Assembly: GCA_001447805.1 (NCBI GenBank)
Contig: CP013099.1
Location: 496,001 to 560,000, forward strand
Direction: 5' to 3'
Length of the DNA: 64,000 nt
Source: Candidatus Tenderia electrophaga
GTDB lineage: Bacteria; Pseudomonadota; Gammaproteobacteria; Tenderiales; Tenderiaceae
The notes under the pieces were generated by a model, which saw only the letters and a list, made by a program, of their open reading frames with translations, was not told where the DNA came from and did no database searches. The position numbers and the translations under genes were made by a program. The number at the start of each line of letters is the position of its first letter. Within the stretch, counting starts at the first letter, position 1. Shown here piece by piece: positions 43,934-53,340 of the stretch.

Positions 43934-44497
43934 ATGCGTAACGTTTGTTTGGCCGTCGCCATGACGGTGTCCGTGTCAGCCTATGCGGCGGAGGAATACA
44001 CCATCGATCCGTTTCACACATATCCTAATTTCGAGATCAATCATCTCGGCTTTTCCACCATGCATGGTCGTTTTGGTAAGACTGAAGGTGAATTGATCAT
44101 CGATTGGGAAAACAATACCGGTGAGGTCGATATCGTGATCGACGCTGCATCCGTGGACACCGGTATGAAGAAGCGTGACGATCATTTGCGATCGCCTGAT
44201 TTTCTCAATGCCGCGGAATTTCCCGAGATCACTTATGAGTCCACCAATGTCGTTATCAATGACGACAAGACCGCCAAGGTGGAAGGCGAGCTCACCATTA
44301 TGGGCGTCAGCAAGCCCGTGACCCTGGATGTGAAGAGCATCAATTGCGGCGAGCATCCGATGCAGAAGGGCACCTTTGTCTGCGGCTTCGATGCGGAAGG
44401 CAAGATCAAGCGTTCGGATTTCGGTGTCACCTACGCTTTACCGGCGGTGGGCGATGAGATGAAGCTGCATTTCCAGGTCGAGGCCAAGCGCAATTAA
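43934..44497 (+). CDS. YceI family periplasmic protein
   Basis: A 187-residue lipocalin-like protein. A signal peptide ends at AYA (about residue 18). The mature part shows the YceI pattern: YTIDPFHTYPNFEINHLGFS, KRDDHLRSPDFLNA and FGVTYALPAVGDEM. Family members bind isoprenoids such as polyprenyl lipids in the periplasm. GGGGAG lies before the ATG. A strong terminator follows. Confidence 0.93.
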   Translation: MRNVCLAVAMTVSVSAYAAEEYTIDPFHTYPNFEINHLGFSTMHGRFGKTEGELIIDWENNTGEVDIVIDAASVDTGMKKRDDHLRSPDFLNAAEFPEITYESTNVVINDDKTAKVEGELTIMGVSKPVTLDVKSINCGEHPMQKGTFVCGFDAEGKIKRSDFGVTYALPAVGDEMKLHFQVEAKRN

Positions 44498-44570
44498 GCC
44501 GCATTTCTCACCGGGACCGCGGCAGCAGCTGCGGGAACATTCATTGTAAGGCCCCATTTTTGAGGGGGCA

Positions 44571-44600
44571 AAAAAACGGCGCTGACAGCGCCGTTTTTTT
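44571..44600. terminator. Bidirectional terminator between the yceI-like gene and the PmbA-family gene
   Basis: AAAAAACGGCGCT (44571-44583) pairs perfectly with AGCGCCGTTTTTT over a three-base loop, with A and T runs on both sides. A second small GC hairpin lies at about 44551-44570. Confidence 0.9.
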
Positions 44601-44612
44601 ATGGGCGCGCCG

Positions 44613-45929
44613 CTACAGCGTGAAGCTGAAATCGTCCACCAGCACGCCGGGCAGCTTGGCGCTGCTTTCCGAGCGTCTTTCATAGGTGCCGGTATCGAAA
44701 ATCTGTTCGCGCTCCCGGGTCAGATCCACCAGTTTTTCTCCAAGGATGCTGAGGACGCTTTCATCGAAACGCATGACGTTCAGCGGTGCCACCGGCACAC
44801 CGTTTTCTACCCACAGGCAGGCGAAGCGGGTCATGCCGGTGATGCGGCAGTGATTGCGGTCGGAATAATTGCAGTACCACAGGTTGCTGATGTAGACGCC
44901 GGTGTCCAGTGCCTTCAGTACTTCGTCTTGAGGTAATTCGCCGCTGTCCATTTCCAGGGTCTGTGGATGTTCTATGCTGCAATTGACGGCGCTGCCGTAT
45001 TCCTTGGCGCTGCGTGGGTAGGCCAGACATTGAGCGTATTCACCGTTGACGATCAGCGGCACGGTATCGGGCTTGATGAAACCGCTGCGGGTAAAGCGCG
45101 GTGTAATGCCGCCGGCATGGTTTTCGGTGAGCGTGACGCGGGCGTCCAGTTTCACGCCTTCGCGCACCATCTTGATCAGCGGCGTGGTGGCGGTGCGGTG
45201 GCTCTTGAGCCCGAAGCCGCCCCAGTTGAGCAGGGTCATCAATTCATACAGGGCCTGGGGGGCGAGGAAGACGCGATAGCGTCCGGGTTTGATGGTGATC
45301 GGGGGCTTGTCCAGCAGTCCGAGAGTATCACGCGCGAATTCCACCTTGTGCTTCAGGTGGGCCGGGCTCCAGTCGACGCCGGCGTAATTTTGTTTCACCG
45401 CCTTGTCGTCCTGCAGGTAGACGCTCCAATCGAAATTGAAATTGAAATTGCTGTGCCAGTTGAATTGGCCCAGGGCGTTGGCGAAGCCGTGGGTGATCTC
45501 ACCGCCGGCCCACAGGCCCACCAGGTCGAGGTCTGCGGCGCAATCGATGATTTGGTCGATCACCTCATGCGTCGGCGGCAGGCAGTCCCTGCCCGGCTGG
45601 TAGGTGTCGTGCCATTCACTGGAATAGTTTAGATAGGGATCCTGCGGCAGTAGCGGCAAACGCCGGCGCAGCGCCTGTAGCGCGCGCTCGGCCTGGTAGA
45701 CATCACTGCGTAGATCACCGTTGATCTGTATCACGGCACTGGCCTCGCGTTGCGAGTGGATCAAATCCAATTGCAGACTCTGTTGCCGCACATGGCCGGC
45801 CTGGCGGATGCGGTTACGGTTGAAACGCACGAAGTCCGATTGCTCGCCGTCGTAGTTGAGCAGCAGCACTTCGCCATCTTTCAGGCTGTTGCATAACTGT
45901 TCGCTGAGCTGGCGGAAATGGATTTCCAT
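44613..45929 (-). CDS. TldE/PmbA family protein (non-catalytic partner type)
   Basis: A 438-residue protein of the TldD/PmbA family lacking an HExxxH motif, hence like the TldE/PmbA partner subunit. In characterised systems TldD and TldE form a heterodimer in which only TldD holds the zinc. Family segments include GLWAGGEITHGFANALGQ, PGRYRVFLAPQALYEL and LDTGVYISNLWYCNYSDRN. It starts at ATG 45929, one base after the stop of the upstream TldD-like gene, so the two are coupled. It is not the standard pmbA, which normally stands alone. Confidence 0.82.
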   Translation of the reverse strand: MEIHFRQLSEQLCNSLKDGEVLLLNYDGEQSDFVRFNRNRIRQAGHVRQQSLQLDLIHSQREASAVIQINGDLRSDVYQAERALQALRRRLPLLPQDPYLNYSSEWHDTYQPGRDCLPPTHEVIDQIIDCAADLDLVGLWAGGEITHGFANALGQFNWHSNFNFNFDWSVYLQDDKAVKQNYAGVDWSPAHLKHKVEFARDTLGLLDKPPITIKPGRYRVFLAPQALYELMTLLNWGGFGLKSHRTATTPLIKMVREGVKLDARVTLTENHAGGITPRFTRSGFIKPDTVPLIVNGEYAQCLAYPRSAKEYGSAVNCSIEHPQTLEMDSGELPQDEVLKALDTGVYISNLWYCNYSDRNHCRITGMTRFACLWVENGVPVAPLNVMRFDESVLSILGEKLVDLTREREQIFDTGTYERRSESSAKLPGVLVDDFSFTL

Positions 45930-45930
45930 G

Positions 45931-47367
45931 TCATGCGCCGCCGAAGATTTCGATATCGTGAAAGACGCAGGCCGGGGAGGCATGTCCCACCTGGATGGCC
46001 TGGTTGGGTTCCCCTTTGCCGCAATAGGGCGTGCCCCAGATTTCGAAACTGGCGCCGTTGCCGACAGCGGCCAGGCTGCGCCAGAAGGTGGCGGAAATGC
46101 CGCGATAATTGGGGTTGCGCACAATGTCTTTGATTTCGCCGTCCTCAATGAGGCGGCCGAGTTCGCAGCCGAATTGGAACTTGTTGCGGCTGTCGTCGAT
46201 GGACCAGGACTTGTTGGTCTCCATCAAAACGCCGCGCTCGACGGACGCCACCAGTTTATCAAAACTGTCCTTGCCCGGCTCCAGGTTGAGATTGGCCATG
46301 CGGTCGATGGCGGGACGGTTCCAATCACAGGCGCGGGCGTTGGCCACACCGGCCATGCCGCTGCGCGCCTGCGACACGGCGCTGCCCAGGGGGCGTTCCA
46401 GGATGCCGTTGCGAATGACATAGCTGCATTCGGCCGGCGTGCCCTCTGCGTCGAAGGCATAACTGCCCACTTCACGCGCCAGGCCCGGGTCGAAGGTGAC
46501 ATTGAGCAGATCGGAGCCGTATTGATAGGTGCCGAACATCTCCGGCGTGACGAAGCTGGTGCCGGCGTAGTTGCGTTCGTCGCCGAGGATGCGGTCCAGC
46601 TCCAAGGGATGGCCGATGCTCTCGTGGATCTGCAGCATCATCTGGCTCGGCATCAGCAACAGCGATTGAATGCCTGTCGGGCATTCGGGTGCCTCCACCA
46701 GGGCGATGGCCTCTTCCGCGACTTGCCGCGCGGCATCGGGAAAGCCGTAATCGGCCAGCAGTTCCAGCCCGCCCTGAAACGCAGCCCCCCAGCCGCCGCC
46801 ACTGCGGCTCTGGGTTTGGGCGCCGCGGTTGGCGACGGCGGCGAAGCCGGGGATCAGAAACTCAAATTGTTGTTCGATCTCGATGCCGTCGCTGGTCAGC
46901 AGTAGGATGTCACTGTTACGCCGGGTTAAGTGGGCCTGCCAGTCGACGATGCGGTCATCGATCTTGAGGGCGCGATTGATGCTCATCAGGGCAGCCAGTT
47001 TGTCATCCAGACCGGTACTGTCCCACGACTGGTTGACCTGCGAGCGATACACGCCGGAGCGCTGCGGTCGCGGAATATCGGCGGCGCTGAACAAGGCGTG
47101 ACGGGCGTTGGTCTCGGCCCAGTGCAGGGCCTGGTCGATGCTGTGGCGCAACCCGGCCTCGGTGAGCTGGCTGGTGGCGGCATAACCCACGCCGCCGCCA
47201 TTGACCACGGTGAGATGAATGCCGCGGCTGCGGCTCAGACGCGGTGGCTGGACGATGTTCTCGCGTACATTGAGGCTTTCGCGATCGTCGCTGACCAGGC
47301 GCAGGGACCAGAAGTCCACGGCCGGCATGATCTCTTTGAAGAGCTTGATGGCATGTTCGAAATCCAT
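45931..47367 (-). CDS. TldD-like zinc metallopeptidase
   Basis: A 478-residue TldD-family protein. The metal-binding motif HESIGH is at residues 248-253, with the following PLELDRILGDERNYAG as in active TldD. The C-terminal CGKGEPNQAIQVGHASPAC supplies further conserved cysteines. The narrow TldD active site suits unfolded peptides or small amides. It lies seven bases after the ATP-grasp ligase gene and is coupled to the TldE-like gene. The substrate may be the product of the neighbouring ligase; this is inference. Confidence 0.85.
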   Translation of the reverse strand: MDFEHAIKLFKEIMPAVDFWSLRLVSDDRESLNVRENIVQPPRLSRSRGIHLTVVNGGGVGYAATSQLTEAGLRHSIDQALHWAETNARHALFSAADIPRPQRSGVYRSQVNQSWDSTGLDDKLAALMSINRALKIDDRIVDWQAHLTRRNSDILLLTSDGIEIEQQFEFLIPGFAAVANRGAQTQSRSGGGWGAAFQGGLELLADYGFPDAARQVAEEAIALVEAPECPTGIQSLLLMPSQMMLQIHESIGHPLELDRILGDERNYAGTSFVTPEMFGTYQYGSDLLNVTFDPGLAREVGSYAFDAEGTPAECSYVIRNGILERPLGSAVSQARSGMAGVANARACDWNRPAIDRMANLNLEPGKDSFDKLVASVERGVLMETNKSWSIDDSRNKFQFGCELGRLIEDGEIKDIVRNPNYRGISATFWRSLAAVGNGASFEIWGTPYCGKGEPNQAIQVGHASPACVFHDIEIFGGA

Positions 47368-47373
47368 AGGTGA

Positions 47374-48360
47374 TCAGTCCTGGCGCTGCGCGGTTTCCGG
47401 AAATAACAGATCGAGATAGCGCTCGGCGGTGGGTTGGGGTTCGTGATTGGCCAGACCGGGACGCTCGTTGGCTTCGATGATGACATACGCCTCGCCTTCC
47501 AGTGTCGGCATCAGAAAGTCCAGGCCTACCACCGGGATGTCGATGGCCCGTGCCGCCGCCAGCGCGGCCGCGCGGATGGCCGGGTGGATACGCGCAGTGA
47601 CGTCGTGGATGGTGGCGCCGGTATGTAGATTATCGGAACGGTGCACCACCAGGGTCTCGCCCTCCGGCAGGACACTATCCATGGCATAACCCGCCTCACT
47701 GACGCAGCGGTGCGTCTCGCCGTCCATGGGGATGTGGCTCTCGCCGCCGGTTTCCTGTTCACGGCGATGGCTTTGTGCGTGGATCAATTGCTCGATGCTG
47801 TCGCGGCCGTTGCCCGTGACCTGGGGCGGGCGGCGTACCGCGGCGGCCACCACCGCGTTGTTGATGACCACCACGCGCAGGTCATCGCCGGCGACGAATT
47901 GTTCCAGCAATACGCGGTCGGCCGTCTGGTGGGCGATATCGATGGCCTCGTCCATGTCCGCTTCGGTACGGATATCCACGCTCACCCCGGCACCCTGTTC
48001 ACCTCGGATGGGTTTCACCACGATGTGTCGGTGGCGCTCGAGGAAGGCGCGGTTGTCCTCAGCAGCGCCGGCCAGCTGTTGGGCCGGCACCTGCAGTCCC
48101 GCCTGCGCCAATAGGCGGCGGGTGACACCCTTGTCATCGCAACGGCTCATGGCGATGGCCGTGGTCAGTTCGCTGAGCGACTCGCGGCACACAATGCGCC
48201 GACCGCCGTAACTCAGTTCAACAAAGCTTGCCTGTCGGTCCAGCAACTCTACGTGTATGCCGCGGCGCCGGGCTTCATCGACGATGATTTTGGCGTATGG
48301 GTTGAGTGCTTCGAGCGCCCGCTCCGGGGCGGTCGATTCTGGTGCCTGCACATCGTTCAT
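47374..48360 (-). CDS. ATP-grasp amide ligase, cyanophycin synthetase/NAGGN synthetase-like
   Basis: A 328-residue ATP-grasp enzyme. Residues about 75-320 resemble the ligase domain of cyanophycin synthetase, GshAB and N-acetylglutaminylglutamine synthetase: VVKPIRGEQGAGVSV, LLEQFVAGDDLRVVVIN, PPQVTGNGRDSIEQLI, TGATIHDVT and VIIEANERPG. It lacks the GNAT domain of NAGGN synthetase and the Mur-ligase domain of CphA, so it is a stand-alone form. It should join an amine to an activated carboxylate, such as an amino acid or short peptide. It is first in a tight operon with TldD- and TldE-like genes. Confidence 0.85.
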   Translation of the reverse strand: MNDVQAPESTAPERALEALNPYAKIIVDEARRRGIHVELLDRQASFVELSYGGRRIVCRESLSELTTAIAMSRCDDKGVTRRLLAQAGLQVPAQQLAGAAEDNRAFLERHRHIVVKPIRGEQGAGVSVDIRTEADMDEAIDIAHQTADRVLLEQFVAGDDLRVVVINNAVVAAAVRRPPQVTGNGRDSIEQLIHAQSHRREQETGGESHIPMDGETHRCVSEAGYAMDSVLPEGETLVVHRSDNLHTGATIHDVTARIHPAIRAAALAAARAIDIPVVGLDFLMPTLEGEAYVIIEANERPGLANHEPQPTAERYLDLLFPETAQRQD

Positions 48361-48487
48361 CTATCCACCCTAATGAGTCGTCTGTATCAATCATCTTAGG
48401 GCCTGTCGACGCGAATTTCAAAACGGCGGCGATCCACGAGCTGACTGCTGAAGCGGGAATAATGAGTATTCAGTATTCAAAGGCCCT

Positions 48488-49057
48488 TTAGTGATCGTTG
48501 TCGAAACCGAAACGCCCCAGACAGGCGTCGCACATGGTGTGCGTTATGCGCGGCAGGCTTTCCGTGTCGAACAGGTGTAGGTGGGCGATGGCGTTTTCGG
48601 TCTCCATCCAGCCCGTGCCACCGGTGTCGATGTTTTTACACCAACTGCACATGCGCAGCATCGCGCCGTGCTCATTGTGAGACGCCGCTGGATCGAGCAG
48701 CCTCAGCGGTTCCCGTTGTTCGGTGCGCAGCGTCCGACAGCAGTACTCAATAGCGTCGTTATCCAAGGGCGCGATAATCATTTCCATATACCTGCGCAGC
48801 GCCGGGGCATCGCATCTGAAGGGCAGGGTAAGCGTGTGTCCGCTTTGCCGTACCCGTTGCAGCAGGGTTTGATGCAGGTGGCGCGTTTCGGAATCGCGGA
48901 TAAAGTGCCACAGCACCTGGTTGGTGATGTGGTCTTGCATCAGGTCGCGGGCGTCGTTTTCAATGGCAAAGCGATTCCATTGGCTGTTGAATACCACGAG
49001 ACGATCGTCGGCATCGATTTGATACACGGTTTCTTTGTGATGTTGATTCATGGGCAT
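48488..49057 (-). CDS. PAS-like sensory protein with C-terminal CxxC zinc motif
   Basis: A 189-residue soluble protein. Residues about 10-115 look like a PAS fold (YQIDADDRLVVFNSQW). The C-terminal part has MCSWCKNI (about 136-143) and TMCDACLGRFG (about 173-183), two CxxC pairs likely to bind zinc. This combination occurs in small uncharacterised signalling proteins of proteobacteria. There is no output domain, so it may act by protein interaction. It stands alone, downstream of the flavodoxin-like gene on the same strand. Confidence 0.72.
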   Translation of the reverse strand: MPMNQHHKETVYQIDADDRLVVFNSQWNRFAIENDARDLMQDHITNQVLWHFIRDSETRHLHQTLLQRVRQSGHTLTLPFRCDAPALRRYMEMIIAPLDNDAIEYCCRTLRTEQREPLRLLDPAASHNEHGAMLRMCSWCKNIDTGGTGWMETENAIAHLHLFDTESLPRITHTMCDACLGRFGFDNDH

Positions 49058-49177
49058 GGGCGCATGTGCTTCATGTCAATAGCCCCCGTTTCTCACCATT
49101 GTTCGTAGCGAGACGGTTCAGGCAGGATGCTCGCCTCGGTTTGGCATGCGAACCGAACCGGCCCCCGTCCGTTTTCG

Positions 49178-49876
49178 TCAATCGCGCTGATTGCCCTGTG
49201 CCGGAATGCCGCCAGCATGCCTGATCATACCCGCCAGGTGCATCAGATTCCAGCTCATAATCTGGGTGTTGCGCTGCGTAAATGCATTCTCAGGCCCGCC
49301 CGAATCCGGATCGCGGTAGGACGGCCCCGGCCCGGCTTCGCCGACCCAGTAGGCATCTGCCTGGGGCGGAATGACAAAACCCAAATGTTGGAGCGAATAC
49401 AGAATGTTCATGGCGCTGTGCTTGGCGCCGTCCTCATTGCCGGTGATCAGGCAGCCGCCGACGCGGCCGTAATACACCGATTGTCCGGTGTCGTTGGTGT
49501 CGGCCGAATTGGCGTAGAGGCGTTCGATGAGCTGGGTGCAGACCGATGATTTTTCCCCAAGCCAGATAGGCGTGGTGAGCACCAGAATATCCACTGCTTT
49601 GACCTTTTGGTACAGCTCGGGCCAGGCGTCCTGATCCCAGCCGTGGTTACGCATATCCGGGTAAATGCCGGTGGCGATGGCGTAATCCACCGGGCGCAAT
49701 ATTTCCACCGTGACGCCCTGCTGCGCCATGATGCTGCGTGACAGTTCAACCAGGCCGTCAGTGTGGGACAGTTCGGGCGACCGTTTAAGCGTGCAGTTGA
49801 GGAATAAGGCCTTAAGGCCTGAAAATTCAGCAGTACCTGTTGAATCCCGTTGAGATTGGTGGCGTCCATCGCCCAT
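49178..49876 (-). CDS. Flavodoxin family protein/NAD(P)H-dependent oxidoreductase
   Basis: A 232-residue flavoprotein of the NADPH-dependent FMN reductase group. It has KALFLNCTLKRSPELSHT as the phosphate-binding loop (about residues 22-40), LVLTTPIWLGEKSS around the flavin ring site, and GGCLITGNEDGAKH. It probably reduces FMN, quinones or nitro compounds; the physiological substrate is unknown. ATG 49876 is preceded by GGGGAAAG. Confidence 0.85.
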   Translation of the reverse strand: MGDGRHQSQRDSTGTAEFSGLKALFLNCTLKRSPELSHTDGLVELSRSIMAQQGVTVEILRPVDYAIATGIYPDMRNHGWDQDAWPELYQKVKAVDILVLTTPIWLGEKSSVCTQLIERLYANSADTNDTGQSVYYGRVGGCLITGNEDGAKHSAMNILYSLQHLGFVIPPQADAYWVGEAGPGPSYRDPDSGGPENAFTQRNTQIMSWNLMHLAGMIRHAGGIPAQGNQRD

Positions 49877-50093
49877 GGCCGTCTTTCCCCGGTTGTGTGT
49901 GAAAACGGTATAGTAATTCCCACAGGCGGTCGCAACTCAAGAATGCTCGCCATACATGGCCTTGCTGAGCCCATCCTTATTGAGAAATCTCAATGCAATT
50001 TGCGAGGTAAGCGTTAATCATAGCCTAAGTGCCAGCCCAACGGCGCTTGCTTCGTGAGACGATTATTTCATCATTGAAGAGGTCCATTGCATC

Positions 50094-51206
50094 ATGACAA
50101 ATGATACCCCAATGCCTGCGCGCGCGATTCCACGCATCGGCAGCGTCGCAGTGTTAATGAGTGCCATGATCAGCGCGCATGCCCATGCCGACATCCAATT
50201 CCAGTTGTCACCGCGCGCTGTGGGGGGTGGCCATAGCGAGGGGGTGGCCCTGGCCGATCTGAATGGGGATGGCTATATCGACGCCTTTATCGCCCAAGCC
50301 AACGCCCCAAATGAGGTCTGGTTCGGTAGCGGAAACGGGCACTTCGATAATTCCAACCAGGCTTTGGGCAACGCCTATAGTCGTGGCGTGGCATTGGCGG
50401 ACTTTGACGGCGATTCTGACATCGATGCCTTTGTCGCCAACTACGGTTCGCACAGCACGGTTTGGCTCAATGACGGACGCGGAAAATTCAGCAATAGTGG
50501 TTTGGAATTGGGTGTGGGCGTCATCAGTTGGGATGTCGACGTCGGTGATGTGGATGGCGACGGCGATGTCGACGCCGTGGTGGCCAATCATGCCGGGAGC
50601 AACGACGTTTGGCTGAATGACGGCGCCGGCGGGTTCCAACGCGCCGCGGCTGGCGTGGGTGACAGCGATAGCTGGGATGTCGTCTTGGCCGATCTGGACG
50701 GCGACGGCGATCTGGATATTTACGAAGGCAACCATGGCCAGCCCAATTATGTTTGGCGCAATGACGGCAAAGGTGAATTCACTGATACCGGTCTTAGGCT
50801 GGGTGAATATTACACCTGGGGGGTAGTGATCGCCGACTTCAATGGCGATGGCTATCCCGACGCCTTCGATGCCAACTGGTCGAATGGTCCCAACCAAGTT
50901 TGGTTCAACGACGGCAAGGGCGGGTTTCGCGATAGCACGCTGAAACTCGGCCGTGCCGACAGTGAGGCGGGCGCTGCGGCGGATTTCGATGCTGACGGCG
51001 ACGTGGACGTATTTGTCGCCAATTCCGCCGCAGACGGGAATCGCCTTTGGTTGAACGATGGTCGCGGACATTTTAGTGACGGCGCCTTGCCGTTGGGGAA
51101 GGCCGACAGCAAAGACATCGTCGCCCATGATTTCGATGCTGACGGCGATGCCGATGTGTTGGTGGTCAACGACGGGGAGAATCAGATCTGGCTCAACACT
51201 CGCTGA
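50094..51206 (+). CDS. Exported VCBS/FG-GAP repeat protein, seven calcium-binding repeats
   Basis: A 370-residue secreted protein. A signal peptide (about 1-33) is followed by seven repeats of about 47 residues, each with a calcium loop such as DLNGDGYID or DFDADGDVD and a VWLNDGxGxF strand. Seven repeats predict a single seven-bladed, integrin-like propeller that fills the mature protein. No catalytic or anchoring domain is seen, so it is probably released or bound to another surface protein. It is a single gene divergent from the flavodoxin-like gene. Confidence 0.87.
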   Translation: MTNDTPMPARAIPRIGSVAVLMSAMISAHAHADIQFQLSPRAVGGGHSEGVALADLNGDGYIDAFIAQANAPNEVWFGSGNGHFDNSNQALGNAYSRGVALADFDGDSDIDAFVANYGSHSTVWLNDGRGKFSNSGLELGVGVISWDVDVGDVDGDGDVDAVVANHAGSNDVWLNDGAGGFQRAAAGVGDSDSWDVVLADLDGDGDLDIYEGNHGQPNYVWRNDGKGEFTDTGLRLGEYYTWGVVIADFNGDGYPDAFDANWSNGPNQVWFNDGKGGFRDSTLKLGRADSEAGAAADFDADGDVDVFVANSAADGNRLWLNDGRGHFSDGALPLGKADSKDIVAHDFDADGDADVLVVNDGENQIWLNTR

Positions 51207-51329
51207 GCGCAGCCCCCCCCTTACAGGGGATGCCCGCGGCCGCCGTGCGGCCTAGTCACGCCCGCAGTGCCTTGTGTTAGGCAAGCGGGCCGGGTCCGGT
51301 TCAGCGGGCCCCGGCCCACCTCCCGTCCT

Positions 51330-51548
51330 TTATTTGTTGATCATCTTGCGCGCCAGTCTGACGCCCAGCAGTGTGAGGGGCAGGCCGTGTAACAGGAGGT
51401 CGAAGATGTCCAGGGGCTTGGTCAGTTGCCCCGCGCTCAGCAGCTTCAATTTTTCCCATAGATGCGGCTCGGGGCTGAAGGGTGCCAATGCCAGCAATAT
51501 GGCCGCCACGGCGAAGGGAAGCAGGGGGATTCCATCCAGCCACTTCAA
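51330..51548 (-). CDS. Small membrane protein, rsmA-linked
   Basis: A 72-residue protein with two hydrophobic helices (about 8-25 and 47-62) separated by a polar segment (SPEPHLWEKLKLLSAGQL). Similar small proteins occur in other proteobacteria, sometimes mislabelled RND transporter; function is unknown. GGAG and AAGGG lie just before the ATG and the gene begins five bases after the rsmA stop, which supports it being real. Confidence 0.7.
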   Translation of the reverse strand: MKWLDGIPLLPFAVAAILLALAPFSPEPHLWEKLKLLSAGQLTKPLDIFDLLLHGLPLTLLGVRLARKMINK

Positions 51549-51553
51549 TGCCC

Positions 51554-52351
51554 TTACTCCGTCTCTGTCACGACGCTGTCGCTGAGCCTGGCGAAGTCAT
51601 CGAGGCTGAGGGTTTCGGGTCGGGCGCCGGGATCGACGCCGACGCGTGCAATCTGCTCGGCGCTGAGAACGGATTTCAGGCTGTTGCGCAGGGTCTTGCG
51701 ACGTTGACTGAAGGCTTGGGTGACAAGTTGGGCGAACAGCTTTTTATCACCCACCTGCACCGGGGATTGGGCATGAGGGGTGAGGCGCAGGATGGCGGAA
51801 TCCACCTTGGGCGCCGGCTGGAAGGCGCTGGCGGCGACGTCGAACAGGTGTTGCGTTTCGCAGTGGTACTGGATCATGACACTGAGGCGGCCGTAATTGT
51901 TGTCGCCGGGGCCGGCACAGATACGGTCGACCACCTCTTTTTGCAGCATGCAGTGAATATCCCGGATGCTGTCGATCTGATCTATCAGGTGAAATAACAG
52001 CGGTGTGGAGATGTTATAAGGCAGATTGCCGACCACGCGCAGCCTGTGGGCGTCGCCCAGGGTGCGGAAATCGAAGCTCAAGGCATCGGCGCTGTGGATG
52101 CAGATGTTCGGTTCAGCGGCGTAGCGTTGTTGCAGACGCGCCACCAGGTCGCGGTCCAATTCCACTACGTGCAAGCGTCCCGCGGCGGCCAATAATTGCT
52201 CGGTAAGGGCGCCCAGACCGGGGCCGATCTCGACCAGGGTGTCGTCGGGCTTGGGATTGACCGCGTCGATGATGCGTTGGATGACGCCCGGGTCATGGAG
52301 AAAGTTCTGGCCGAAGCGTTTGCGTGCGCGGTGGCCTTGGTGGGCGTTCAT
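51554..52351 (-). CDS. rsmA: 16S rRNA dimethyladenosine transferase RsmA (KsgA)
   Basis: A 265-residue methyltransferase that dimethylates the two adjacent adenosines near the 3' end of 16S rRNA. Motifs: [12 protein letters not shown] at the start, [14 protein letters not shown] (SAM motif I), [12 protein letters not shown] (NLPY catalytic motif IV). ATG 52351 overlaps the pdxA stop (ATGA); GTG 52366 would add five residues and is less likely. Order surA-pdxA-rsmA is the classical one. Confidence 0.96.
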
Positions 52352-53340
52352 GGGCGTGTTTTCCACTGCTTGCTCATCTCGATGGCACTGTTAATGGCGG
52401 CGTTAAGACTGCCGTTGTCGGCCTGGCCCGTGCCGGCCAGGTCGAGGGCGGTGCCGTGGTCCACCGAGGTACGGATGATGGGTAGACCCAGGGTGATATT
52501 GACGGCGGTGCCGAAGCCTTTGTGTTTCAACACCGGCAGACCTTGATCGTGATACATGGCCAGTACGGCATCGGCGTGATCGAGATATTTGGGTATGAAT
52601 AGGGTGTCGGCGGGCAGCGGCCCGACGAGGTCCAGACCCTCGTTTCTGAGTCGGTGTAGGGTTGGTTTGACGATCTCCTCGTCTTCGCTGCCGAGATGGC
52701 CATCTTCCCCGGCGTGGGGATTAAGGCCGCAGACGTAGATGCGCGGCGCCGTGATGCCGAGTTTATCGCGTAGATCGCGGTGCAGGATGTGAATCACGTC
52801 TTCGAGCAGGGCTTGGGTGATGGCATCGCAGACCTGGCGCAGAGGCAAATGGGTGGTGGCCAGGGCCACGCGCAGGCCGGGGGTGGCCAGCATCATCACC
52901 ACCTGATCGGTGTGAGTCTGCTCGGCGAGAAATTCGGTATGACCGCTGAATTTGATGCCCGCCTCGTTGATAACGCCTTTGTGCAGCGGTGCGGTGACCA
53001 GGGCGTGAAAGGTGCCGTCCAGGCAGCCGCGGGTAGCTTGGGTGAGGGTGTCGAGCACGTACGGGGCGTTGGCCGGGTTGAGTTGGCCGCATTGGACCGG
53101 TTGCGCCAGTTCAACGGGCAGCACTTTGAGTATGCCGGGTTGCTGCGCTCGGGCCGGTTGGCGGGCGTCGAAGGTTTCGATTTGCAATGGCAGGTTGAGC
53201 AGCCGGGCGCGTTCGCTGAGGAGTTCGGGGTCGGCCACGGCGACCAACTCGGCGGCGTGGGGGTGCTGGGCCAGTTGCACGACCAGGTCGGGGCCGATGC
53301 CGGCCGGTTCGCCGGGGGTGATGGCTAGGCGGTGAGGCAT
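52348..53340 (-). CDS. pdxA: 4-hydroxythreonine-4-phosphate dehydrogenase
   Basis: A 330-residue enzyme of pyridoxal phosphate synthesis. [13 protein letters not shown] opens the protein. Metal and substrate segments [24 protein letters not shown] and [16 protein letters not shown] are intact. It ends in a four-base overlap with rsmA. About 260 bases separate it from surA, and they contain an inverted-repeat element. Confidence 0.96.

Follow-up and report, generated by a model that had tools for sequence, protein, structure and literature searches.

A stand-alone ATP-grasp ligase of the Ngg family next to a TldD/TldE-type gene pair in Candidatus Tenderia electrophaga

The proteins considered here have their closest described relatives in two separate systems. 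Ngg, the N-acetylglutaminylglutamine (NAGGN) synthetase (TIGR03103; S. meliloti Ngg, P. aeruginosa PA3460), acetylates a glutamine and couples a second one to it, and AsnO then amidates the product (PMC8070244). The ATP-grasp half of Ngg is approximately 50–67% identical to the ligase described below and has all its domain landmarks in common with it. A homologous ATP-grasp domain, with approximately 30–36% identity to the ligase, is also found in cyanophycin synthetase CphA1 (PDB 7lg5, 7wac and others). The second system is the E. coli TldD/TldE (PmbA) peptidase (PDB 5nj5), in which the HExxxH motif and a C-terminal cysteine are the zinc ligands of TldD (PMC5810440). Its two-subunit layout, with the zinc-site residues in TldD only, is also that of the pair described here.

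The window analysed is a stretch of 64,000 nucleotides of the Candidatus Tenderia electrophaga genome (GCA_001447805.1, contig CP013099.1, positions 496,001–560,000). Within it, a gene for an ATP-grasp ligase is followed by a TldD-like and a TldE-like gene (Table 1). The ligase lacks the GNAT half of Ngg, and the genome has neither of the partner enzymes of the NAGGN pathway, AsnO amidotransferase and M42 peptidase; unlike CphA1, the ligase has no Mur-ligase-like domain, and its clade is separate from that of CphA with full support. Both NAGGN synthetase, of which the ligase is a detached half, and this kind of TldD/TldE peptidase are known.

Locus layout and transcription signals

Table 1 Features of the locus and of its borders (coordinates of the window)
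Feature	Position	Strand	Description
Ligase gene	48360-47374	minus	328 aa; stand-alone ATP-grasp, homologous to the C-terminal half of NAGGN synthetase (Ngg)
TldD-like gene	47367-45931	minus	478 aa; TldD-type metallopeptidase subunit
TldE-like gene	45929-44613	minus	438 aa; TldE/PmbA-like partner without HExxxH
Promoter-like site TTGAAA-17-TAAGAT	48421-48393	minus	consensus scan; 32 bases upstream of the ligase start
Hairpin terminator with T tail	44555-44605		between tldE and yceI; strong, -19.8 kcal/mol, z -6.56; probably bidirectional
yceI	43934-44497	plus	left border of the variable site; adjoins rsmA in relatives G004 and G008
rsmA	51554-52366	minus	right border of the variable site

The three open reading frames of the original prediction were confirmed, and so was the single base between tldD and tldE; the gap between the ligase gene and tldD comprises six bases, not seven. 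The ligase frame has a clean start preceded by a purine-rich stretch resembling a ribosome-binding site, covers the full-length domain and contains neither stops nor frameshifts. Judged from this layout, the trio may be transcribed as a single unit, and co-transcription of the ligase gene with the pair is plausible. The consensus scan found two promoter-like sites in the region against 1.3 expected by chance. The gene order and the homologies of the trio are far beyond chance. The gene immediately upstream of the ligase gene (48488-49057, minus strand) encodes a 189-aa protein that looks PAS-like by eye and contains CxxC motifs; it had no Pfam or NCBIfam match at default limits.

The ligase and the Ngg family

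Pfam assigned the ligase to the RimK/ATP-grasp proteins. The best family was TIGR03103, matched with 486.8 bits over model positions 232–545 of 547, which is below the cut-off of 569 bits set for full-length proteins; according to this profile, the N-terminal GNAT acetyltransferase half is absent from the frame. Cyanophycin synthetase scored 221 bits (cut-off 850) over model positions 155–476 of 862 only, GshAB 141 bits, and the ATP-grasp peptide maturases of TIGR04187 only 28 bits. The original prediction had proposed a tree including CphA and NAGGN synthetases. Such a tree, for which 41 Ngg-type and 15 CphA-type ATP-grasp domains were taken together with that of the window, placed the ligase inside the Ngg clade, which was separated from CphA with 100/100 support. 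The sister of the ligase was the full-length Ngg of one genome (G205) with weak support (81/92), and its end branch was not an outlier. The profile, the tree and the genome search thus identify the ligase as an Ngg reduced to its ATP-grasp half, without the N-terminal acetyltransferase, and the originally noted resemblance to the amide-forming domains of cyanophycin and NAGGN synthetases, with the partner domains missing, proved correct.

The catalytic-type residues K77, K116, E153, R176, D281, E296 and N298 are present. Of the 70 columns that are invariant in the other Ngg sequences, the ligase deviates at four, which is the highest number among the 42 sequences; three of these deviations lie within residues 240–249. 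One of them, G249A, affects a position which is near-invariant in CphA as well; all the other positions conserved in Ngg and CphA are present. As a reading of the residues, these departures would fit either an altered specificity or early decay.

A second stand-alone Ngg ligase was not found in two partly overlapping genome draws (369 Gammaproteobacteria and 398 Proteobacteria), in which all other Ngg-type matches had frames of at least 579 aa, contig-end fragments excepted. The GNAT half was present in 41 of 42 NAGGN-type ligase loci, the exception being a contig-edge fragment. The 1.5-kb flanks of the 42 loci contained an AsnO gene in 40 cases and an M42 peptidase gene in 36. TldD/TldE occurred in none of these flanks. 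Homologues of the ligase thus nearly always occur apart from the pair, which is one of the outcomes that the original prediction had named as refuting it. Relatives of Ngg are also present in the plasmid collection, where most rows among the matches listed are labelled ngg. The present case shows that the ATP-grasp half of Ngg can occur as a gene of its own, which offers a simple test of the role of that half alone.

In the whole genome to which the window belongs, no NAGGN amidotransferase exceeded the cut-off of TIGR03104, the NAGGN M42 peptidase (TIGR03106) had no match, and the search for a second Ngg or a GNAT half elsewhere gave no strong match (best 29 bits). Since the genome lacks all three components, namely acetyltransferase half, amidotransferase and M42 peptidase, NAGGN is unlikely to be the product of the ligase, which weakens the earlier suggestion of an osmolyte. 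On gene content, the organism should not make NAGGN by the established Ngg/AsnO route.

The TldD/TldE-type pair

The window TldD carries all three PmbA_TldD domains (Pfam PF01523, PF19290 and PF19289) and matched E. coli TldD (5nj5_A) with 5.9e-109 in hmmsearch, whereas only the third domain (PF19289, 1.2e-12) was detected in the TldE-like protein, which gave a weak profile match to the PmbA structures 1vl4 and 5nj5_B. In the family alignment, the HESIGH motif of TldD is intact at residues 248–253, as had been predicted, and Cys449 is kept; the partner has no HExxxH motif there. A housekeeping TldD/PmbA pair lies at approximately 3.55 Mb of the same genome, 3 Mb from the window pair. The two TldD proteins are 25–27% identical, and the window TldD scored 92.3 bits with the housekeeping TldD model NF008006, below its cut-off of 513. 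The window pair is of the TldD/TldE type and distinct from ordinary TldD/PmbA, in line with the original prediction. It is a paralogue of the housekeeping pair belonging to a separate, widespread and uncharacterised two-gene family.

A TldE-like gene was found in 29 of 369 gammaproteobacterial genomes (E 1e-8). In the genome collection, at least 578 stretches carry one; they derive from Gammaproteobacteria, Betaproteobacteria, Alphaproteobacteria, Deltaproteobacteria, Planctomycetota, Eisenbacteria and others. Among the best 80 of these at least 578 loci, which come from many phyla, TldD adjoins TldE in 78, and in none of the 80 does the stretch covered contain an Ngg, AsnO or ATP-grasp match (E 1e-3) beside the pair. 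A conserved three-gene system, as originally envisaged, is not borne out by these loci. Beyond close relatives, codon-scored gene calls showed no other recurrent neighbour family; no recurrent RiPP precursor or modifying enzyme was found beside the pair in a scan which would miss very small ORFs. The pair is a self-contained two-gene unit, fixed in many phyla and apparently unconnected to the housekeeping TldD/PmbA. It is also present in two very small genomes (G151 and G263, loci L083 and L086; approximately 1.0–1.1 Mb, 96–99% complete); its retention there suggests that it is of use without any ligase.

History of the site and the relation of ligase and pair

The region between yceI and rsmA (window positions 44498-51553) is a variable site, which holds, in addition to the trio, genes for an FG-GAP repeat protein, an FMN-reductase-like protein and a short protein without assignment. 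Apart from the two relatives in which rsmA directly adjoins yceI (Table 1), another one (G006) has different genes at this place, encoding a truncated-globin-like protein and another short protein. In the congener G003, rsmA is followed by approximately 0.2 kb and tldD, and tldE and yceI are located on a second contig. Beside tldD, 37 bases of the 0.2-kb segment match the extreme 3' end of the ligase gene with a score of 37, against at most 30 in 500 shuffles. The segment also matches the region downstream of the window rsmA, again better than 500 shuffles. This ligase stub of approximately 40 bases beside tldD indicates that the trio is older than the split of the window species and G003. If the draft assembly is right, approximately 3.9 kb was later deleted in G003; the assembly is 88% complete with 6% contamination, and the deletion could be an assembly error. 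An RRRGIHV-like reading in the same intergenic region was discarded as a chance occurrence, its neighbouring bases aligning downstream of the window rsmA.

The ligase is dispensable, since G003 has the pair without it. The dN/dS values of the pair between the window and G003 (0.085–0.165), compared with 0.167 for rsmA and 0.147 for glyS, indicate purifying selection, and the pair therefore seems not to need the ligase. A plsC value was left out of this comparison, as it was derived from incorrect frame coordinates. In the G003 tldD sequence (L245, contig 114, approximately 3475), a TAG replaces the Glu codon of the HExxxH motif approximately 30 bases from the contig end; either the gene carries a genuine nonsense change or the assembly is wrong here.

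We consider it likely that the ATP-grasp half of an Ngg and the widespread TldD/TldE pair have separate histories and were combined into an operon specific to this lineage. Most likely, the ligase would use ATP to turn a carboxylate into an acyl phosphate and join this to an amine, as Ngg joins N-acetylglutamine and glutamine; the likeliest product would be a dipeptide containing glutamine, with the carboxylate supplied from elsewhere. TldD and TldE would form a heterodimeric chambered metallopeptidase acting on unfolded or small peptides, which in other organisms presumably works without any ligase. The two parts would have been brought together between rsmA and yceI in the ancestor of the window species and G003, and G003 would then have dropped the ligase and kept the pair. 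The trio is a local arrangement in one lineage and not a conserved new system, and functional coupling of its two parts is unproven.

An Ngg-type gene near the pair was found at one further locus only, that of G147 (contig 17, L068 1026-10510), where a complete NAGGN operon encoding AsnO, a full-length Ngg and two M42 peptidases lies approximately 0.9 kb from the pair in divergent orientation and a small predicted membrane protein is encoded upstream of tldD. The pairs of G147 and of the window fall into the same clade of five (96/97) and their common origin was not rejected, whereas a common origin of the two ligases was marginally rejected (common clade p-AU 0.036). The window ligase is GNAT-less and not sister to the G147 Ngg. 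By a rough, post hoc estimate, approximately 0.01 such second cases of an Ngg gene neighbouring the pair would be expected by chance among approximately 107 loci, with Ngg present in approximately 4% of the gammaproteobacterial genomes drawn. The arrangement in G147 thus hints, if weakly, that NAGGN-type peptides and the pair are functionally linked. At the genome level, co-occurrence of Ngg and the pair was not enriched (two genomes besides that of the window, Fisher p 0.24), and no paper linking TldD/PmbA with NAGGN was found in a limited literature search.

The trio might be a functional module in which TldD/TldE takes the place of the NAGGN M42 peptidase and degrades or trims a small glutamine-type peptide produced by the ligase. 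The compact, co-directional arrangement, its age relative to the split from G003 and the operon beside the pair in G147 speak for this, and the NAGGN cassette likewise has a synthetase and a peptidase side by side (G147; PA3459-PA3461, PMC8070244). We nevertheless regard a module as unlikely in view of the 80 other pair loci devoid of a ligase, the selection on the ligase-free pair of G003 and the absence of genome-level co-occurrence. Its extended form, in which the detached ligase makes a new small peptide with the TldD/TldE family as its dedicated peptidase, and the pair serves NAGGN-type non-ribosomal peptides generally with G147 as a second instance, appears quite improbable.

Alternatively, the ligase could be a former NAGGN synthetase which is being lost and has no present function. 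The loss of the GNAT half and of both partner genes, the changed invariant columns including G249A and the deletion in G003 point in this direction, but the intact reading frame with its start signals, the preservation of all other Ngg/CphA-conserved positions and the ordinary end branch make decay a rather doubtful explanation. TldD/TldE matures microcin B17 (PMC5810440) and occurs in other RiPP pathways, so that a RiPP locus could also be imagined, with the peptidase removing a leader peptide and the ATP-grasp enzyme forming a macrolactam or adding an amino acid. As the ligase belongs to the Ngg family and not to the ATP-grasp peptide maturases, and a scan that could miss very small ORFs showed no recurrent precursor-like or modifying gene at the pair, this is very improbable. 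The two-part operon described above is the reading we prefer.

Several apparent co-occurrences of NAGGN genes with the pair, which were based on amidotransferases over the TIGR03104 cut-off (in G062, G309 and G242, and a second one in G024), were discarded, since their neighbourhoods showed stand-alone genes and no ngg. Stand-alone amidotransferases over this cut-off and without ngg are those at L100 8658-10433, L101 9012-10790, L102 4898-6667 and L103 8719-10545, some of them beside a glutaredoxin-like or argF-like gene. TIGR03104 therefore appears to over-call the NAGGN amidotransferase.
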